Shown here one piece after another: positions 24,203 to 34,933 of a stretch of DNA of 40,368 nucleotides; the first letter of the stretch is position 1; each line of letters begins with the position of its first letter. Source of the stretch: Nitrospira sp. LK70 (lineage in GTDB: Bacteria > Nitrospirota > Nitrospiria > Nitrospirales > Nitrospiraceae); contig PHGD01000031.1 in assembly GCA_011090425.1 (NCBI GenBank), positions 1 to 40,368 on the forward strand, given 5' to 3'. Under the pieces are notes generated by a model. That model did no database searches. It was not told the DNA's origin and was given only the letters and a program-made list of their open reading frames with translations. The translations under genes and the position numbers were made by a program.

Positions 24203-24967
24203 ATGCGACAGAAGACTCAGAACCACAGACGAGAGCGACAGAACAAGAAGTGGAGTTTCCCTGGCTCCTCACGCATCACCTCTTCTCTCGCTCGCCCGAT
24301 CCGTGTTTTCATCGCCGATGGCTACGAAGTCGTCAGGGCCGGGGTGCGGGTGCTGTTGGAAGCGGAACGAGACCTCACCGTAGTCGGTGGAGCCGACAAT
24401 GCGGAGGACGTGTTTTCAGAATTGCGACGAACCAAGCCGGATGTGGCCTTACTCGAATCCGGTCTCTCAGGCGGTTCGGAATCCGAGTTCTACAAGACCC
24501 TCCGTAATGTCCTTCCATCACTTCGGATCATCACTTTGATGAAGGACGGTGACGCCGGGGCATTCCGTAACGCAATCGAGGCCGGAGCACAAGGGTTTCT
24601 GCGGAAGAGCACCGGCCGGATCGAGCTGGTTGGAGCGATTCGTACGGTCGCCAAGGGGGGCTCCTACCTCAGTTCGGAAGAAGCCGATCAGACATTCCAC
24701 CTCTTGAGACGGCAGCAGGATACGATCTGCGCCCGGTCCTCGTTGCATATCCTGTCACCACAAGAACGGCGGATCATCGTGCTGATTGCGGAGGGAAACA
24801 CCAACAAAGAGATCGCCGCGAAACTGGTGCTGTCGGACAAGACGGTGAAAAACTACATCGGAAACATGTTTGCCAAGTTGGAGATCGAACGCCGCACCCA
24901 AGCGGCTACGCTTTACATGAGGGCACAGCAGCATCAGCACTCGATAGGTGAGCACGTTTCCGCGTAG
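24203..24967 (+). CDS. Atypical LuxR/NarL-family response regulator with degenerate receiver
   Basis: A 254-residue protein with AGGAGG (24189-24194) 8 bases before the ATG. A basic 30-residue N-terminal extension precedes the receiver domain. Key receiver residues have changed: acidic pair DD becomes DG (FIADGYEVV), phosphoacceptor Asp becomes Glu (VALLESGLSGG), and the Thr/Ser switch becomes Leu (RIITLMKDGD). The Lys is kept (GFLRKS). The HTH (about 183-240) is intact (SPQERRIIVLIAEGNTNKEIAAKL; KTVKNYIGNMFAKL). It therefore probably binds DNA without aspartyl phosphorylation. No kinase adjoins it in the same orientation. Confidence 0.88.
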   Translation: MRQKTQNHRRERQNKKWSFPGSSRITSSLARPIRVFIADGYEVVRAGVRVLLEAERDLTVVGGADNAEDVFSELRRTKPDVALLESGLSGGSESEFYKTLRNVLPSLRIITLMKDGDAGAFRNAIEAGAQGFLRKSTGRIELVGAIRTVAKGGSYLSSEEADQTFHLLRRQQDTICARSSLHILSPQERRIIVLIAEGNTNKEIAAKLVLSDKTVKNYIGNMFAKLEIERRTQAATLYMRAQQHQHSIGEHVSA

Positions 24968-25905: not shown

Positions 25906-26640
25906 TCAACAAGAGTTGAGATGAGGAGTCGTCCTCTCGCGGTCAGGTTTGATCGGTTCAATGAGTCTCGATGGGTAAGGTGCCCCTGAGCCTCTAAAGC
26001 TCCCGGCATAGATGGCCGCAATCTGGGATCGGCGCCCGATATTCAGTTTCGAATAGATATTCGCAAGATAGTTCTTAACGGTCTTTTCGCTTAACCGCAG
26101 ATCATGGGCGATCTCTTTGTTCGTCAGGCCCTTGGCCACCAACGGCAGAAGGCGTTGCTCCTGTGGAGTAAGAACAGATCGTTTTGATTGTCCCAGTTCA
26201 CTGTACATATTACTCAGCCAATCCGCGGTCTGTTTCGTCAAGCGAGGATCGATAAGCGTTTCGCCGGAGACTACGGTCCGAATGGCACGGATCAGAGCAT
26301 CGGACGCAATGTCCTTCAGAATGTAGCCCTGAGCGCCGGAAAGAACAGCCTCGATCACGGTATGGTCGTCGGCAAAGCTCGTCAAAAACAATATGCGAGT
26401 CTTGGAGCACTTCGCGAGAATCTCACGCGCGGCATCCACTCCGCTGCCGTCCGGCAGTCGAATATCCAGTAATACGAGATCCGGCTTAAGGCGATAACAG
26501 AGTTGCTTCGCCTCTTCCATCCGCCCACCTTGCCCCACAACCTTCATCCCGGGCGTCAAATTGAGAACCGCACAGAGTCCGATGCGCACGACCTCATGAT
26601 CGTCCACAAGGACGAGCCGAATGGTTCTGGACCTATTCAT
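25906..26640 (-). CDS. NarL/FixJ-type response regulator
   Basis: A 244-residue regulator with every receiver residue in place: [10 protein letters not shown], phosphoacceptor in [13 protein letters not shown], Thr in LFLTSFADD and Lys in GYILKD. The LuxR-type HTH (about 155-212) reads [24 protein letters not shown] and [15 protein letters not shown] Pro/Arg-rich tail of about 25 residues follows. The ATG overlaps the end of the kinase gene by 8 bases, so the kinase is transcribed first and the two are coupled. Confidence 0.92.
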
Positions 26641-29287
26641 ACACAGTTCCCTTCTTCAGCGGAACATCGACCAGGACCGTGGTCCCCTTCCCCGGTAGGC
26701 TCTCCAGCGTGAAGGCGGCGGAGATTTGCTTGGCTCGGGCGGCCATATTGTCTAATCCATTACCGCCTCGTCGTTTGCGATTGGAGGAAAATCCGACCCC
26801 GTTGTCGCCGACGATCAACTGGATCGTGTTATCCGCCAGCCTGAGTCGAACCCACCGACGGGACGCGTCGGCATGACGAGTGCTGTTGCTGAGAGCTTCT
26901 CGTACGATATTGAGTAACTGCTCTCCCAGCTGGGGAGTGATGAAGGACAGGACCGGGTTTGTGATGTCCAGTTCAGGTGCGGCTTGGCCGGTGCTCGTCA
27001 TCGAGGCGATGAGCAGCCCGAGAGCCTGCCCAAAATCCGGCTCCTTGGTGGTGCGGTGCGTCAGCAAAGCAATGAACCGCCGAACATCGAGCATGAGGTT
27101 ATTCAGTTGGTCAACGGCTTGCGTCATATGGATTTTGGATTGCCGGGATGATTTCCTCAATGCCAGCTTGCCGGCTTCCAACTGCATACCGACGGCGTAG
27201 AGAGCTTGTAAAATATTGTCGTGCAGGTCTCGACTCAAGTGCTCACGTTCCTCCATCGCCAGTTTGCGCTCGGTAATGTCCTGAACCGCGGCAAGAAGAA
27301 GAGGCCCGACATGGCCTGTTAGCTCAACGGGATTTGCTTTGACTGAGACCCAAATAATTTCACCGGACTTACGAATGTATCGCTTCTCGTAGGTATATTC
27401 CGATCGAATCCCACGAAAAAATTCGTCCGTCAGCACAATGTTGGCGGAAAGATCTTCCGGGTGTGTATACAACGCATAGGTACTGCCGATAAGTTCATGT
27501 TCTTCATATCCCGTCAGCTCACACAAGGCTTTGTTGACGCTGACCAGTCGCAAGTTTTCATCGAGGATACCGAGGCCGACCGGGGCTTCGGCCACGAAGC
27601 GCTGAAGCCTACGCTCGCTCGCGCGTAAGGCTTCCTCGGCGCGTCTGTGTTCGGTGACATCTCGGAAACTCCAGACGCGGCCGACGATCTCATCATCGAG
27701 AACCTGCGGCCGAGAATAGCGCTCGAAGACCCGTCCGTCCTTGAAGTCAAGGACATCGAAGCTCTCTTGTTCCGGGTTCTCGTAAAGCTCTCGAACCTTG
27801 CACAGGAACGCATCGGGATCTTGCAGTTGATCCAAGACAAACTTCAGCAACGCCTCATCATCTCGGCAGTCGGCCAGGGACTGCGGAATATTCCACAAAT
27901 GTAAGAAACGTTGGTTGGCGCTGGTCACCTTGCCCTGACGATCTATCACGAGCAGTCCGTCCGCGACCGAATTCATGGCGGCTTCGAGCAGTGAATAGGA
28001 ACGTTTGCGATCGGAGATGTCGCGCACGATGCACCCGACCGTGGCGCGATCCGGCCCGTTTCCCGGAATAGACGTCAGAATCCCGGAAAAATACCGTACC
28101 TCCCCACCCAACGACACCGTATAGTCAATGGTCGCTGCTTCGCCTGTCGTCATGACGCGACGAATCGTTTCAAGATAGTGGGAACCTGTCTCGGGACCAA
28201 AGATATCGGTCAATTGCTTGCCGACCAGATCCTGCTTCGGCAGCAGCAGTTTGTCTTCATTGCGGGTCCACACATTGAGATATCGTCCGTTCTCATCGAA
28301 TTCAAAGGCGAGGTCGTCCAGGGCGTCCAGAAATGAGCGGAATCGGGCTTCGCTCTTGATCTTGGCTTCCTCGGCCCGCTTCAGGTCCGACTGATCCACA
28401 TAGATACCGACGGCGCCCGAGACCTGCTTGAACTCGTCATAGATAAAAACGGGCCAGAGGAGGAGGTCGAGCATGACACCGTCTTTGCGCCGGCGTTTCA
28501 GCTCGATAGGGCCGGCCAACTTTCCGCGAGTGCCCGCTTGCCACAGTGTATCGGCGGCTGCCTCTTCGCCAGGCTGAATATAGGGGAGTTCGCACCCCAA
28601 TACTTCCCCTTCCGACCAGCCGAATAGGCGTGTCGCGGCCTGATTCCAGCTGGTCACGCGTCCGTCTCGATCAAGGCTGACGAGCGGGAGCGCTGATTCT
28701 CTGATGAGGGTACGGAGCAGGCCTGAGGTTTGGTCGAGCTGATTGTCCATCAACCTGCGCTCCGTGATGTCTTCGCAGACCACCAGAACGAGGATGTGGT
28801 CTGTCTGGTCATGAATTGCGCGCGTTTGTTCTCTGACCCACAGCCTGGCTCCGTCCTTCCGGATCATTTGACCTTCCCGTTGAAAGAGCTGGTAGGGACT
28901 CTCGGCACAGTCCTTCAGATGTGTCAGCACGGTTTGTTGGTCACGTGAATCACACAGTTCCACGATAGATCGGCCGATCAGGTCCTCCTTCAGGTATCCC
29001 AGACGATCAGCTCCCAGGCGGTTTACGGATAGCACGATGCCGTCGGTGGTGAGGGCAAAACACATGCAGGGGTTCTGCTCATAGAGCGACCGGTATTGCT
29101 GCTCGCTGGCCTTGAGCGTGGATTCAGCCTGTTGCCGCAGTTCGATTTCTTGCTTGAGTTCGCCGACGGCTCTTTCCAACGTTTGGCATGCCGAGATATG
29201 TTCTGAAATACGGTTGCGTTCGACGTCGGCCAACGCCTGCTGCAATTCGAAAACCTGGCGGCGGAGGTCACCAAGGTCGGTTGACAT
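26633..29287 (-). CDS. Multi-PAS NarL-type sensor histidine kinase
   Basis: About 884 residues from the ATG at 29287 (GAGAG 4 bases upstream); an earlier ATG at 29317 is possible but has no ribosome site. A short coiled coil (about 10-60) leads into five PAS domains: [64 protein letters not shown] and [16 protein letters not shown]. Each ends in a D(I/V)(T/S) type junction. HisKA_3 then has its His in [16 protein letters not shown], and HATPase has N box [12 protein letters not shown] and G1 DNGVGF. There are no membrane helices. The regulator partner overlaps its 3' end. Confidence 0.9.
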
Positions 29288-29499
29288 TGAGCTCTCGGTA
29301 CCCAGCGGCACAGTCATCGAGAAGAGCCTAGGTGTTACGCATGGGGAAGCTATAAGGCCAGTCCGCTTCCTGTCACTGGTGAGTTTATCGTGAGTGGGTA
29401 GTATAGAACCAGCGGGTCTACCGATGCTAGAGGAGAGGTCTCGGTCAGGAGGTATTACGAAGGCGGAAGCACCAAGGGCACGAGCAGGTTACAAAAGCC

Positions 29500-30180
29500 C
29501 TAAAAGCTTTGACCTCGTGCAGCACCTGGCGCCTGCGCCTCTTTCATGAACCAGGCGACGGCTTCCGTGCGACGCTTGACATGAAGTTTATCAAAAATAT
29601 TGGCCAGATAGTTTTTCACGGTTTTGTCGCTCAAGCGAAGGTGGACGGCGATCTCCTTATTTGTTTTGCCTTCAGCCAGAAGCGGCAGGATCAAACGCTC
29701 TTGCGGAGACAGTCGGGAAGTCCCATTGGAGGCCTCTCCAAGGTGTGAACTGGTCCGAATCCAGTGCAGAGCCTGCTGGGTGACTCGCGGATCGAGATAA
29801 CCATGGCCTCCCGCAACGGTACGAATGGCACGAATCAGGTCATCCATCCTGACATCCTTGAGGACATATCCGTGGGCACCGTTCTGGACTGCTGCCATCA
29901 CCGTGGAATCTTCAGCGTAACTGGTGAGGACGAGAATCCGAAGTTTGGGTACAACTGCCAGAAGCCGTCGACAGGCCTCGGTCACCGAAGCGTCAGGAAG
30001 CTTCACGTCGAGTAGCACCATGTGGGGGATCAGACGTTCAACGAGCGCCACGCCTGCCGCCACGGTTCCTGCCTCTCCGACGATCGTCAGATCCGGTTCG
30101 AGATGAAGCAGCGCACGTAGCCCTCTGCGGACCATCTCATGGTCGTCAATAAGCACGATGCTGGTCTGTGATTGTTTCAT
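29500..30180 (-). CDS. NarL/FixJ-type response regulator, partner of the lux-box-controlled kinase
   Basis: 226 residues. Receiver: IVLIDDHEMV, phosphoacceptor in MVLLDVKLPDAS, Thr in LVLTSYAED, Lys in GYVLKD, all functional. HTH about 155-212 ([38 protein letters not shown]). Closely similar to the regulator at 25906-26640, so the two kinase/regulator pairs look like duplicates that diverged in their sensors. It begins 9 bases after the kinase stop and would be transcribed with it from the promoter near 31085-31130. Confidence 0.92.
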   Translation of the reverse strand: MKQSQTSIVLIDDHEMVRRGLRALLHLEPDLTIVGEAGTVAAGVALVERLIPHMVLLDVKLPDASVTEACRRLLAVVPKLRILVLTSYAEDSTVMAAVQNGAHGYVLKDVRMDDLIRAIRTVAGGHGYLDPRVTQQALHWIRTSSHLGEASNGTSRLSPQERLILPLLAEGKTNKEIAVHLRLSDKTVKNYLANIFDKLHVKRRTEAVAWFMKEAQAPGAARGQSF

Positions 30181-30189
30181 CTGGACACC

Positions 30190-30996
30190 TCATACGGACA
30201 CTAGAAGTGGTTCCAAAGAAAACTCTGCGATGACTTGTGTGCCCTCTCCGACTTTGGACTGGACCGTCAACGTCCCACCGAGTCGTTTTGCTCGAGCCTC
30301 CATATTGGCCAGCCCATATCCTCGTGGCTGTCCGTCCACCGTCGAAAACCCGATGCCATCATCAAGGATACTCACCCGAATTCTGGCTCCTCGCATGCGA
30401 AGCGAGACAATGACCTCTGTTGCGTGGGCATGGCGGACGCTGTTACTGATGGCTTCCCGCACGATATTCAGAATCTCTCGCTCTTCCTCATTCGTGAGGA
30501 CATCAATGGCGCCGCGTTGGAGATCCAGCCGTACGTGCAGCCGTCCTGTTTGCTCATAGGTTGCGCACAAAGCGGCGAGCTCTGACGACAAGTCAAACAC
30601 CTGGACGCTTCCCGATTCCAACTCTCGAATCATCCCACGGACCTCATGAATCAGCTGATTGAGCTGGAGGATGATCTGGTCGTCGGCCTCGGTCGCTTCC
30701 GCCGTTTGTTGGTTCCTCCGGGCCCGTTGATCCGTTCCAATGTTCAAGCCGATGGCATACAACGACTGCAGGACGCAATCATGGAGATCTCGACCGATAC
30801 GGGTGCGATCTTCCAGGAGCGTGTTCAAGCGGCTTTCGGTCGCTTGTATCGCGGTCGTCAACTCACCTGCACAAGGCTTTAGCTGGTGCAGGTCCAACGA
30901 TGCTTCCGCCGGTCGGACCGACGTGGTCGCTGAAACTGCAGAGGTCGATCGACGTCTACCATGCAACAATCGAAGCCGTGTCCTACCCTCTCTCAT
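30190..30996 (-). CDS. Short NarL-type histidine kinase without a recognised sensor domain
   Basis: 268 residues. About 75 N-terminal residues, basic then weakly helical, lead into the HisKA_3 helix with phosphoacceptor His in RTRIGRDLHDCVLQSL, then HATPase with N box EAISNSVRHAHA, G1 DDGIGF and G2 GYGLANM. There is no PAS, GAF or membrane helix, so input may come from a partner protein or from expression level. AAGGAGGT lies 5 bases before the ATG. The upstream region holds a lux-type dyad at 31113-31130, suggesting that quorum sensing controls the gene. Confidence 0.88.
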   Translation of the reverse strand: MREGRTRLRLLHGRRRSTSAVSATTSVRPAEASLDLHQLKPCAGELTTAIQATESRLNTLLEDRTRIGRDLHDCVLQSLYAIGLNIGTDQRARRNQQTAEATEADDQIILQLNQLIHEVRGMIRELESGSVQVFDLSSELAALCATYEQTGRLHVRLDLQRGAIDVLTNEEEREILNIVREAISNSVRHAHATEVIVSLRMRGARIRVSILDDGIGFSTVDGQPRGYGLANMEARAKRLGGTLTVQSKVGEGTQVIAEFSLEPLLVSV

Positions 30997-31012
30997 AACG
31001 TACCTCCTTGGT

Positions 31013-31042
31013 TCCCGATCTTCTTGGATCCCGATCTTCTTG
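31013..31042. repeat. 14-bp direct repeat in the kinase leader
   Basis: TCCCGATCTTCTTG occurs at 31013-31026 and again at 31029-31042, a period of 16. It lies in the expected untranslated leader of the minus-strand kinase. A recent tandem duplication or a binding site for a small RNA or protein are both possible. Confidence 0.5.
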
Positions 31043-31084
31043 TTTGAGCGTTACGAAGCCAAACCACCCTTGATGTCGCTTGGA

Positions 31085-31130
31085 TATTTAGTCCATCGCC
31101 GACTGGAAATCACCTGGCGGATCCGCCAGG
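31085..31130 (-). promoter_or_regulatory. Lux-type operator and promoter of the kinase/regulator pair
   Basis: CCTGGC-GGATCC-GCCAGG at 31113-31130 is a perfect 18-bp palindrome. It fits the CT-N12-AG pattern of LuxR/LasR-family sites and shares both arms with two dyads upstream of luxI. On the minus strand a -10-like TAAATA (31090-31085) puts the operator centre at about -42.5 from the predicted start. That is the spacing of the Vibrio fischeri lux box, where the activator replaces the -35 contact. A good -35 box is indeed absent. Binding by the LuxR at 32489-33313 is inferred. Confidence 0.6.
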
Positions 31131-31376
31131 GGGTGGCCGGCGGCACTTCATAATTCATCGGCACTTGGCTTCAACGTCGCAGGCTGAAAGATTCCTTGAT
31201 AGGTCGAACAGACCGGGAGGGGGAGAGTCCTGCTGAGGATCGAAGTTCACCGTCCGACAATTGAAGACCGGACTTGCCATCTGTCACGCCACCACCCACC
31301 TCTCACCTCCTCAATGTTTCCTCAAAAAAACAGACTCATCTCAAATTGAACGATCAGTACTTGCTTCAAGGCGACA

Positions 31377-31403
31377 AGTAAAACGCCTGGCGTATAAGCC
31401 AGT
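31377..31403 (+). promoter_or_regulatory. Lux-type operator, distal copy upstream of luxI
   Basis: CCTGGC-GTATAA-GCCAGT at 31386-31403, preceded by AGTAAAAC and one base. The same AGTAAAAC-N-CCTGGC arrangement recurs 155 bases downstream at 31532. The centre lies about 283 bases before the luxI ATG. Confidence 0.55.
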
Positions 31404-31407
31404 AAAT

Positions 31408-31428
31408 TACTAGATATATAAGCTAGTA
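31408..31428. promoter_or_regulatory. Dyad TACTAG-N9-CTAGTA
   Basis: Perfect 6-bp arms around the A/T-rich spacer ATATATAAG, 4 bases after the distal lux-type dyad. It may be a second operator or contain a -10 element. CTAGTA recurs at 31443 and 31530. Confidence 0.4.
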
Positions 31429-31493
31429 CAGGCTGCATCCATCTAGTACGTCAGCATTTGCACTTCATATCATCGTTCAAAAATCGGCCTGAT

Positions 31494-31516
31494 CAGGTAC
31501 GAATGTCCAGTACCTG
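31494..31516. promoter_or_regulatory. Dyad CAGGTAC-N9-GTACCTG
   Basis: Perfect 7-bp arms around a 9-base spacer, 25 bases before the proximal lux-type dyad. The right arm runs into CCTGTAGGG, which resembles half of the Vibrio lux box. Its role is unknown; a second regulator or a variant receptor site would fit. Confidence 0.45.
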
Positions 31517-31531
31517 TAGGGTGCAATGACT

Positions 31532-31558
31532 AGTAAAACCCCTGGCTGACACGCCAGG
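31532..31558 (+). promoter_or_regulatory. Lux-type operator, proximal copy upstream of luxI
   Basis: CCTGGC-TGACAC-GCCAGG at 31541-31558, perfect arms, preceded by AGTAAAAC at the same distance as in the distal copy. AACTAT at 31581-31586 lies where a -10 box would fall if the geometry matched that of the kinase promoter. This suggests autoinduction of luxI. Confidence 0.6.
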
Positions 31559-31677
31559 TGACCTATTGCTCCTGAAATGAAACTATCTGGCCCCATCGAA
31601 ACAAACCATCCCGAATGACCCTATGTCCGCAAATTAATGGGGTTTATATCGGGCCCTTACACAAAAAGGAGGTCCCC

Positions 31678-32433
31678 ATGCAAGCCACAGCAGTCGGAGA
31701 GGAAAGAGGAATCGCGTTCTACGAAGGAGAGTTTTTCGTCAAGACACTCGAAACAAAAGAAGAGATGACCCAGGCCTATCGGCTACGACATCGCGTATTC
31801 GCTGAACGGTTGAAGTGGGTACCGGAACAGGCCAACCGACTCGAAGCCGATCTGTACGATGCGTGGAGTACTTCAATCGGGGTATTTGCGGATGAAACCA
31901 GATTGCTGGGATTGGTCCGCATGACCCATGCACCTGTCCCGTTCATGTTGGAGAGCGAATTCAGCGCCTGTCTTGTGGGGAGTCACCGGGTTCGAAAGGA
32001 AACCGATACGGCGGAAATTACTCGACTGGCCGTTGATCCAGCGATCGCGGATCGTGGTCTTTCGGCAAGACTGATGAAAACCATCTTCAAGGGCATGTAT
32101 CAATGGTGTCTGCTTCATGAAGTCCGCTACACCTATATGGTGGTGGAGCACAGGCTCTTGCGGGTGGTCCAGCGCATGGGATGGCCATGCCGGGCCATAG
32201 GTGAACCGGTAGCATTACCACCGGCCGAGGTTCTTTCTATCGGAGGGTTACTCGATCTGGAAGAATTTCGCGTGCAAGCTTCAACGGATCGTCCCAGCAT
32301 GCTCGACTGGCTCACAACAACGAAGCCGGTCACCAGCCCGGCACACCTACCGTCCCTAAGAACCGGCCAGGAAAGTGATATGGGGGAATATGCCGAATTG
32401 GCAGACGATCGGCTTCTGGTACGCGCCGCCTAG
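31678..32433 (+). CDS. luxI: LuxI-type acyl-homoserine-lactone synthase
   Basis: 251 residues from the ATG at 31678, chosen because AAGGAGGT stands 4 bases upstream; an earlier ATG at 31615 has none. The family's invariant residues are all visible: R37, F41 and W47 (RLRHRVFAERLKW), D58 and D61 (EADLYD), R81 (GLVRMT), F89, E113 and R116 (TAEITRLAVD). It would join an acyl-ACP or acyl-CoA chain to SAM to make an AHL signal; chain length cannot be read. The C-terminus is some 40 residues longer than classic LuxI. A long upstream region carries two lux-type dyads. Its stop faces the luxR stop 55 bases away. Confidence 0.93.
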   Translation: MQATAVGEERGIAFYEGEFFVKTLETKEEMTQAYRLRHRVFAERLKWVPEQANRLEADLYDAWSTSIGVFADETRLLGLVRMTHAPVPFMLESEFSACLVGSHRVRKETDTAEITRLAVDPAIADRGLSARLMKTIFKGMYQWCLLHEVRYTYMVVEHRLLRVVQRMGWPCRAIGEPVALPPAEVLSIGGLLDLEEFRVQASTDRPSMLDWLTTTKPVTSPAHLPSLRTGQESDMGEYAELADDRLLVRAA

Positions 32434-32456
32434 CCGTTAATAAGTGCATTTGGGAC

Positions 32457-32483
32457 AGCGGTTGTGGGTAACCAGCAACTGCT
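32457..32483. terminator. Possible bidirectional terminator between luxI and luxR
   Basis: AGCGGTTG (32457-32464) and CAACTGCT (32476-32483) can pair over 8 bp with one G-T pair, with GGTAACC inside the loop. The flanking genes converge here. There is no strong T-tract. Confidence 0.35.
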
Positions 32484-32488
32484 CCAAT

Positions 32489-33313
32489 TCATGCTTGGGA
32501 GGCGGCTGGCAACCCATGAATGGCTGGTAGCCCATGTTCTATGGCGGTCGCAACGGCCTGAGAGCGGGAGGTCACCTCGAGCTTGGAAAAGATGCCCTCG
32601 ATGTGGAATCGTACGGTTCGTTCACTGACTCCGAGAATCTTGCCGATCTCCCAATTGGTCTTTCCGTTCTTCATCCAATTGAGAATCGTGACTTCTCGAG
32701 AAGAAAGCTCTTTGACGCATCGATTCGTTACCGGCACCGATTTCGGCGCGGTTCTGAGCAGAGCCATATGGATGTAATATCCGATGTATTCGACGATGGG
32801 CATCACTCGCTTCGCATCGAGCGACTGCTCGCTGGCAAACGAACAAAACGTGGCGACTCCACAGGCCTGATCGACGGAGCCCGTGGTGATGCCGTCACAG
32901 AGACCGAATCGACGCGCGGTGACGATAAACTCCTGCTCCTTTTCGGAGGACATGTCCTGATAGATCTCTTGCCAATGTTGCGTGCCTGGTGATTTCAAGG
33001 CTGACTTGAACACCGGGTCGACCTCCGCAAACCCGTTTTTCCAGTACATATAGAGCCAGTCATCCGGATAACTGGCGTTGACGACATTACTGAAGCCTGC
33101 AAATGTCCGATTTGGTCCAAGGCGAACGAGTCCCCCAAGCGCTCTGGTAAAGGAGAAATGATTCTGGAATCGAATAAGCACGTCCCGCACGTCATCAGGA
33201 GTCTCAACCTGCATCACGAAGTGAAGAATCTCCATGAAGTTCCGGCAGTCGGTCTTGGAGAGGGTATCGAACGTCTTGTGCGGGAAAGGTAGTCTCGTCG
33301 GTGTATGAGTCAT
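32489..33313 (-). CDS. luxR: LuxR-type autoinducer-binding transcription factor
   Basis: 274 residues; GGAGG lies 7 bases before the ATG. The AHL-binding domain keeps the diagnostic residues in TraR/LuxR spacing: W86 and Y90 (DDWLYMYW), D99-P100 (AEVDPV), W114 (QHWQEIY) and G141 (LCDGITTGS). The C-terminal HTH (about 205-262) has SSREVTILNWMKNGKTNWEIGKIL and RTVRFHIEGIFSKL. It should bind the AHL made by the neighbouring LuxI and then DNA, most likely the CCTGGC-N6-GCCAGG dyads. Unlike the island's other LuxR-HTH proteins, it has no receiver domain. It diverges from the fadL-like gene. Confidence 0.92.
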   Translation of the reverse strand: MTHTPTRLPFPHKTFDTLSKTDCRNFMEILHFVMQVETPDDVRDVLIRFQNHFSFTRALGGLVRLGPNRTFAGFSNVVNASYPDDWLYMYWKNGFAEVDPVFKSALKSPGTQHWQEIYQDMSSEKEQEFIVTARRFGLCDGITTGSVDQACGVATFCSFASEQSLDAKRVMPIVEYIGYYIHMALLRTAPKSVPVTNRCVKELSSREVTILNWMKNGKTNWEIGKILGVSERTVRFHIEGIFSKLEVTSRSQAVATAIEHGLPAIHGLPAASQA

Positions 33314-33380
33314 CGGAGAACCTCCAGAGCTGACAACACAAGTAAAACATACTACACAATCAAGTCAAGAATCACGACAA

Positions 33381-33394
33381 ATCTTACGTAAGAT
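33381..33394. promoter_or_regulatory. Perfect 14-bp palindrome between luxR and the FadL gene
   Basis: ATCTTACGTAAGAT is fully self-complementary. For luxR (minus strand) it lies just upstream of a -35-like TTGACT. The same gap also has ACAAGTAAAAC (33338-33348), an 11-mer found too at 31374-31384 beside the distal lux-type operator. Confidence 0.5.
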
Positions 33395-33547
33395 CGTCCC
33401 AGTTTTAGACTAGAGCTAATCGCCTCTATACCTGAGACCTATTCCACCATTACACTGAACATCGAATGACACGTGTTGACGAGGATCACAGCCGGACATT
33501 GCAGCCGTTTCTCAGGTGGGAGACACGTTTTGGAGAGGGCTCACACT

Positions 33548-34933
33548 GTGACGCATTCATGGTATCTCGGCAGAGGTATCGTCATCGTCATCGTCATCGT
33601 CATCCTCTTGCGTTGTCTCGTGGAGCCGACGGGTGTCGAAGCTCAGGCGCTTCGCTTTCAGCCTCAAGGAGCACGCGCCGCAGGACAGGGGAATGCCTTT
33701 GCGGCCCAGGCCGATGATGCATCAGCAATCCACTACAACCCCGCCGGTTTGGCCCAAGTAGAAGGCATTCAAACCGTGTTCGGCTCCGCTGCGGTCGGCG
33801 GCTCGGTTGAATACCAGAGCCGCACCGGTGTTGACAGTCGCGGCGATTTCAACGGCAGCGTGAACTGGCCGCCTCCAAGCCACTTTTATCTCAGCGCCGA
33901 CCTCTCCTCGGTCAGATTGCCCATTCTTTCCTCCGTGACTGTCGGAATTGGGCTGACTTCGCCGTTCGGCTCAAATGTGAGCTACCCGGTCGATGGTCCT
34001 TTCAACACGGCTGTAACCTCGGCTGCGCTGCCGTTGATTGATATCAAGCCAACCGTCGCGTACAGAGTGACCAAAAATCTGTCGGTCGGTGTGGGCGTCG
34101 ATATCTATACATTTGCGAGCTTTCTTGGTGAAGGCCATGTGGAACAGAAACTGGTGAGCTCCGGAGCCTTGGGAATCCCGGCCGGATCGTCTATGGAACT
34201 GAACGGAACCGGAACCGGCGCCGGTGTAAAGGCCAGCCTGCTCTATACGCCTGTGAGAAACGGAGACGGTCGACCAATCGTCTCCCTCGGGTTCGTCTAT
34301 CGCTCGCAGGCCGTCGTGCCCTTGAAGGGGTCTCTGGTGGTCAACGGAGCCAAGATCGCCGACGCTTCCACCGATCTAGTGCTGCCGCAAATCTTTACTG
34401 GCGCTGTGGCTGTTTGGCCGGTGCGTACAAGCAACAGGGAGTGGAAGGTGGAACTCGATATCGAGTATGTGGGATGGAGTTCAAACAAGAATTTGGACGT
34501 ATACCTTTCGAATGGAGCAACGTTTCCACAGCCTCAAGATTGGAAGGATGTACCGGTCATCGCACTTGGAACCGAGTACCGATGGCTGAATCCTGCCTGG
34601 CTGCCTCACTGGGAGATAGCCGTTCGGTCCGGGTATACGTACACGGATGATCCTGTTCCCGATCGGACCTTCAATCCTGCCACCATTTCCTTGCCGGCTC
34701 ATACCCTCTCTCTTGGCACCGGCTTTCTCTGCAAGGGCACAGGGCGATTACTGGGGATAATTCCCTGCAGCGGACAGTCACCTCTTTGGCCGAAGGGCAT
34801 CGGGCTGGACCTAGCCTACCAGGAGTGGTTCTACGAATCACGCACCGTTGTCGACAATCTGAATCCGACCGTCAATGGGACGTACCATGCATCCGTACAC
34901 CTAGGGACGTTCAGCTTCCTCACTCTATTCTAG
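33548..34933 (+). CDS. FadL/OmpP1-type outer-membrane hydrophobic-compound channel
   Basis: About 461 residues from GTG 33548 (GGAGAGG 10 bases upstream); the frame extends to 33473 without a ribosome site. A signal peptide with an unusual core of alternating Ile-Val (encoded by a hexanucleotide repeat) probably ends at VEAQA. The mature N-terminus has the FadL hatch signature GARAAGQGNAFAAQADDASAIHYNPAGLA, followed by alternating beta-strands and a terminal aromatic (FSFLTLF) suited to outer-membrane assembly. The family imports long-chain fatty acids and other hydrophobic molecules. Divergence from luxR raises the possibility that it handles AHL or its precursors. Confidence 0.88.
   Translation: MTHSWYLGRGIVIVIVIVILLRCLVEPTGVEAQALRFQPQGARAAGQGNAFAAQADDASAIHYNPAGLAQVEGIQTVFGSAAVGGSVEYQSRTGVDSRGDFNGSVNWPPPSHFYLSADLSSVRLPILSSVTVGIGLTSPFGSNVSYPVDGPFNTAVTSAALPLIDIKPTVAYRVTKNLSVGVGVDIYTFASFLGEGHVEQKLVSSGALGIPAGSSMELNGTGTGAGVKASLLYTPVRNGDGRPIVSLGFVYRSQAVVPLKGSLVVNGAKIADASTDLVLPQIFTGAVAVWPVRTSNREWKVELDIEYVGWSSNKNLDVYLSNGATFPQPQDWKDVPVIALGTEYRWLNPAWLPHWEIAVRSGYTYTDDPVPDRTFNPATISLPAHTLSLGTGFLCKGTGRLLGIIPCSGQSPLWPKGIGLDLAYQEWFYESRTVVDNLNPTVNGTYHASVHLGTFSFLTLF
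33581..33604 (+). repeat. (GTCATC)4 repeat in the FadL signal sequence
   Basis: Four perfect copies of GTCATC, preceded by a degenerate GTATC, encode Val-Ile pairs in the signal peptide core. Gain or loss of a unit keeps the frame and changes the hydrophobic core by two residues. Confidence 0.85.

Follow-up and report, generated by a model that had tools for sequence, protein, structure and literature searches.

In Vibrio fischeri, LuxR acts at a 20-bp dyad of the ACCTG...CAGGT type, centered at about −42.5 and overlapping the −35 element, and is responsible for the autoinduction of luxI. Nitrospira are key nitrite oxidizers and comammox bacteria whose quorum-sensing targets are almost unknown. 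LuxI and LuxR proteins, N-acyl homoserine lactone (AHL) production and a lux-type box have already been published for the genus (PMC8553950, PMC5767232, PMC12342949), and expression of the synthase and of luxR in N. moscoviensis lies 2.2 and 2.8 log2-fold, respectively, above the median (PMC6606698). Tan et al. (2021) used E. coli to test 61 predicted lux boxes from an activated-sludge Nitrospira together with its LuxR (NspR1) and C8-HSL, and when no extra sigma factors were supplied, two regions alone responded, both containing ACCTGGCGGTTCCGCCAGGT (PMC8553950). Induction was 196.6-fold toward the divergent gene and 14-fold toward nspI; NspR1 was required for induction of the divergent promoter and bound the box in vitro with RNA polymerase (PMC8553950). 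The divergent gene was described there as encoding a hypothetical GGDEF/EAL protein (PMC8553950).

The stretch of DNA analyzed here (40,368 nucleotides of Nitrospira sp. LK70, contig PHGD01000031.1; hereafter the window) contains a LuxI/LuxR circuit next to a two-component system. The luxI-type AHL synthase gene (31678–32433, plus strand; Autoind_synth, 1e-22, above cutoff), with a likely start at 31678 behind AGGAGG, is convergent with a gene for a LuxR-type AHL receptor carrying Autoind_bind and GerE domains (32489–33313, minus strand). Synthases of this type are encoded in 62 of 79 genomes of the genus. Adjoining luxR is a gene for a FadL/TodX-type outer membrane protein (33473–34933), which is kept at most luxI loci of the genus and could conceivably function in the uptake of long-chain AHLs.

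Diverging from luxI across a 681-bp intergenic gap (30997–31677) is a histidine kinase gene (30190–30996, minus strand), whose ATG stands behind AAGGAGGTACGTT (AAGGAGG). Its partner, a NarL/FixJ-type response regulator with Response_reg and GerE domains (29500–30180, minus strand), adjoins it and has orthologs in 65 of the 79 genomes. Pfam assigns HisKA_3 and HATPase_c alone to the kinase, with no recognized sensor domain in residues 1–63; the lack of a sensor domain agrees with the original prediction; the N-terminus is hydrophilic as judged by eye. Such a kinase may be active without a signal, its activity then depending on the amount made. Downstream on the same strand, a multi-PAS histidine kinase (26633–29317, minus strand) pairs with the regulator RR2 (25906–26640), forming a paralogous second two-component system that is often kept beside the first pair in relatives. 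The regulators of the two systems are ∼50% identical, and cross-talk between the systems can be conjectured. A third NarL-type response regulator is encoded nearby (24203–24967).

The predicted operator of the kinase promoter, box A (31113–31130), is a perfect 18-bp palindrome, CCTGGCGGATCCGCCAGG, and the sequence around it (31112–31131) is identical to the proven NspR1 box at 18 of 20 positions (PMC8553950). The putative −10 element, TAAATA, is located at 31085–31090 on the minus strand; set at −12 to −7, it places the start at 31078 and the dyad center at −43.5, while a start at 31079 would place the center at −42.5. The −35 position reads GTGATT (3/6 matches), and since no sigma-70-like site was detected across 28900–33500 (0 found versus 2.4 expected from shuffles), a canonical promoter of this type was rejected for the kinase. 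A lux-type dyad centered ∼42.5 bp before the predicted start, with a −10 element but no good −35, is the geometry of class II activation. The dyad, the hexamer and the missing −35 had been claimed beforehand and were found where they had been placed, and the claimed spacing held to within 1 nt (31078 versus 31079). The exact core CCTGGC-N6-GCCAGG occurs twice in the whole 4.70-Mb genome, at box A and at 31541–31558 before luxI. Allowing up to two mismatches to the core yields 292 sites versus 379 for a reversed control, and because there is no genome-wide excess at this level, only near-exact sites are informative.

Conservation across the genus was assessed from 60 luxI loci in addition to the window, 61 in total. 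A readable kinase diverges from luxI in 57 of these, the other four being contig ends (L043, L049, L060) and genome G014 (locus L094). All 57 readable loci have an exact box between kinase and luxI: 42 have a single one, mostly within an intergenic region of ∼200 bp, and 15 have two or three, in intergenic regions of 341–1011 bp. When the kinase sides are aligned on the box, a TA begins 22–23 nt past it in 44 of 44 nonredundant loci, compared with 0–14 at unrelated offsets, and the alignment columns there carry up to 1.19 bits of information, whereas shuffles reach 0.32 at most. This fixed offset provides independent evidence for TAAATA as the −10 element and for class II spacing. At two sister-group loci (L111, L112), the kinase is followed by another HisKA_3 kinase that is likewise sensorless (Pfam on L111), and the regulator is only ∼34% identical.

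The proven 20-mer itself has seven exact matches in a 257-Gb genome collection, each beside luxI, in records labeled Nitrospira, Nitrospiraceae or Nitrospirae. The divergent neighbor at all seven is a homolog of the window kinase (40–48% identical), and the three of these kinases examined with Pfam have kinase domains only. Because a kinase stands beside the exact 20-mer in every one of these records, the promoter that responded 196-fold is likely that of this kinase, and the published GGDEF/EAL target may be the same kinase; none of the seven loci precisely matches the published 125- and 81-bp distances (PMC8553950). The original prediction had supposed that such a circuit was not described in this group. 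This was incorrect for the box and the AHL-induced divergent promoter, which are published (PMC8553950), but stands insofar as the downstream gene was there called GGDEF/EAL. Our search, which covered part of the relevant literature, turned up no paper that describes a two-component system as a conserved target of Nitrospira quorum sensing.

The box is also largely confined to this locus. A stricter pattern, CCTGGCGNNNNCGCCAGG, gives 78 sites in the 79 genus genomes versus 2 for the reversed control, and 73 of the 78 sit at the kinase/luxI locus. The five strict boxes elsewhere and two near-exact sites in the LK70 genome were inspected as further regulon members and rejected, being mostly intragenic and none recurring between genomes; the strict pattern misses divergent sites, and weaker regulon members could escape it. 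Among 175 genomes of the family, the box was found in the same 5 of 22 genera as luxI. A hand tally from the tables gives 84 genomes with both, 9 with luxI alone, 6 with the box alone and 76 with neither (Fisher p ∼1e-31, a value inflated by shared ancestry). Apart from autoinduction, the kinase–regulator pair looks like the circuit's main conserved output.

Some relatives have parted with one or the other half of this arrangement. Four luxI-less genomes (L095–L098) keep the exact box ∼100 bp before the kinase, and upstream of the kinase they encode a protein of 180–184 amino acids with a LuxR-type helix-turn-helix (HTH), 51–68% identical over the matched C-terminal part. In the two of these small proteins tested with Pfam, no AHL-binding domain was recognized and the N-terminal part matched no family. 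At a fifth luxI-less locus (L099), the box is degenerate and the same HTH is encoded in a longer open frame. Since the luxI-less loci are placed separately among luxI-bearing loci in the kinase–regulator tree, loss or replacement of the AHL input seems to have occurred more than once, with operator and kinase retained. The operator therefore does not always imply AHL control, as the exact box occurs in four luxI-less genomes alongside a LuxR-type protein without an AHL domain. In G014, kinase, regulator and box are all absent and luxI and luxR remain, luxI facing the multi-PAS kinase in head-to-head orientation; this may be a natural deletion or an assembly artifact.

The joint persistence of box and pair in some luxI-less genomes, and their joint absence from G014 despite its luxI and luxR, would also fit a palindrome bound first and foremost by the module's own NarL-type regulator, with LuxR binding secondary or absent, and that regulator too has a GerE-type HTH. 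We consider autoregulation of this kind unlikely, however, given that purified Nitrospira LuxR binds the box and that AHL activates through it in E. coli, where there is no such regulator (PMC8553950). Moreover, the luxI-less genomes with a box have the small LuxR-type protein, whose HTH is closely similar, box C appears to serve luxI, and at some sister-group loci the box is present although the regulator has only ∼34% identity.

A LuxR that represses the kinase in the manner of EsaR, with AHL relieving the repression, is very unlikely. Box A adjoins the promoter, where a repressor could act as well, and sequence alone does not give the sign of regulation. The fixed class II spacing, the weak −10 and the lack of a good −35 fit an activator-dependent promoter. 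AHL with NspR1 raised the related divergent promoter 196-fold, and NspR1 was needed for this (PMC8553950). Activation is the best supported direction of control and draws on that reporter; we infer that AHL activates in Nitrospira sp. LK70 as it does in related Nitrospira.

Unlike that of most relatives, in which a single box would serve both divergent genes, the control region of the window was partly duplicated. Behind box B (31386–31403), which is decayed by one mismatch, an RBS-like stretch precedes a GTG at 31287 that opens 38 codons ending in a stop (31171–31287, minus strand): VTDGKSGLQLSDGELRSSAGLSPSRSVRPIKESFSLRR. This clearly homologous remnant of a kinase 5′ end aligns with the kinase N-terminus of L044 with a score of 108 (best shuffle, 41), and the three boxes of the window thus reflect a partial duplication of box and kinase 5′ end. 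Box B was rejected as a second working kinase operator, as its −10 is off the conserved offset by eye and it precedes the remnant. After the duplication, box A would serve the kinase and box C, an exact copy at 31541–31558 (CCTGGCTGACACGCCAGG) whose distance to luxI is comparable in relatives, would serve luxI. That box A is a leftover of this event and box C alone is functional is hardly credible, for although the region is partly duplicated and box B has decayed, box A surpasses the other two as a palindrome, recurs unchanged in the three closest relatives and retains the −10 spacing of the compact loci. The control region has no Rfam match that would indicate an RNA element. In the direction of luxI, a conserved dyad, ATGGAACCAT, lies ∼18–28 nt past the box in most relatives, at the expected −10 (AACCAT), and its counterpart in the window is ATGAAACTAT (31577–31586); it may represent an unusual −10, the site of a different sigma factor or an additional operator.

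Taken as a whole, the best explanation, to which we assign a probability of roughly 0.85, is that AHL-loaded LuxR activates both the kinase–regulator pair and luxI from class II sites. Under this explanation, the interval 30997–31677 would be a quorum-sensing control region in which a dimer of LuxR, loaded with the AHL that the neighboring LuxI makes, occupies box A beside the −35 position and brings RNA polymerase to the weak −10 element TAAATA. We predict that this switches on the sensorless kinase and its NarL-type regulator, and that the same action at box C on luxI provides positive feedback, the region having been partly duplicated in the clade of the window so that each gene would have its own box. 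That quorum sensing switches on the pair is very probable, and there is strong support, both from sequence and from analogy with the published reporter, for the predicted direct control by LuxR and AHL through a class II-type promoter. The control of the kinase pair proposed in the original prediction is thus largely upheld, by a box that is nearly the proven NspR1 box and is kept at 57 of 57 loci, the −10 offset fixed in 44 of 44 and a related promoter induced 196-fold.

More tentatively, and with slightly less than even confidence, we suggest that luxI-bearing Nitrospiraceae share one conserved output besides autoinduction, the sensorless kinase (joined by its regulator within the genus examined), such that cell density would set kinase abundance and through it a second regulon, and that several lineages dropped AHL but kept operator and kinase, now controlled by a LuxR-type protein that has no AHL domain. 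These results place a two-component system as the conserved target of quorum sensing in Nitrospira and supply an exact promoter for testing. The question of what AHL does in nitrifiers becomes one of what a single response regulator binds.

Among known systems, the NspI/NspR1 circuit is closest to the window, with homologous LuxI and LuxR and a box that differs at 2 of 20 positions, flanked by luxI and by a divergent promoter that in the published circuit is AHL-induced. The two differ in that NspI and its divergent gene share one box while the window has a separate box for each gene, and in that the divergent gene was called GGDEF/EAL, whereas the window and every readable relative, except G014, have a sensorless histidine kinase. 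New are the partial duplication in the window with its 38-codon kinase remnant and the retention of the box, in some luxI-less relatives, beside a LuxR-type protein that lacks an AHL domain. Among solved structures, CviR of Chromobacterium violaceum (3qp5) is closest to the window LuxR, with a match that spans both domains, and is a protein from a different organism with different known targets. Class II activation at the lux box of V. fischeri resembles the window in dyad placement and in the autoinduction of luxI, but there a structural operon is driven, whereas in the window the output would be a two-component system and the conserved core is CCTGGC-N6-GCCAGG.
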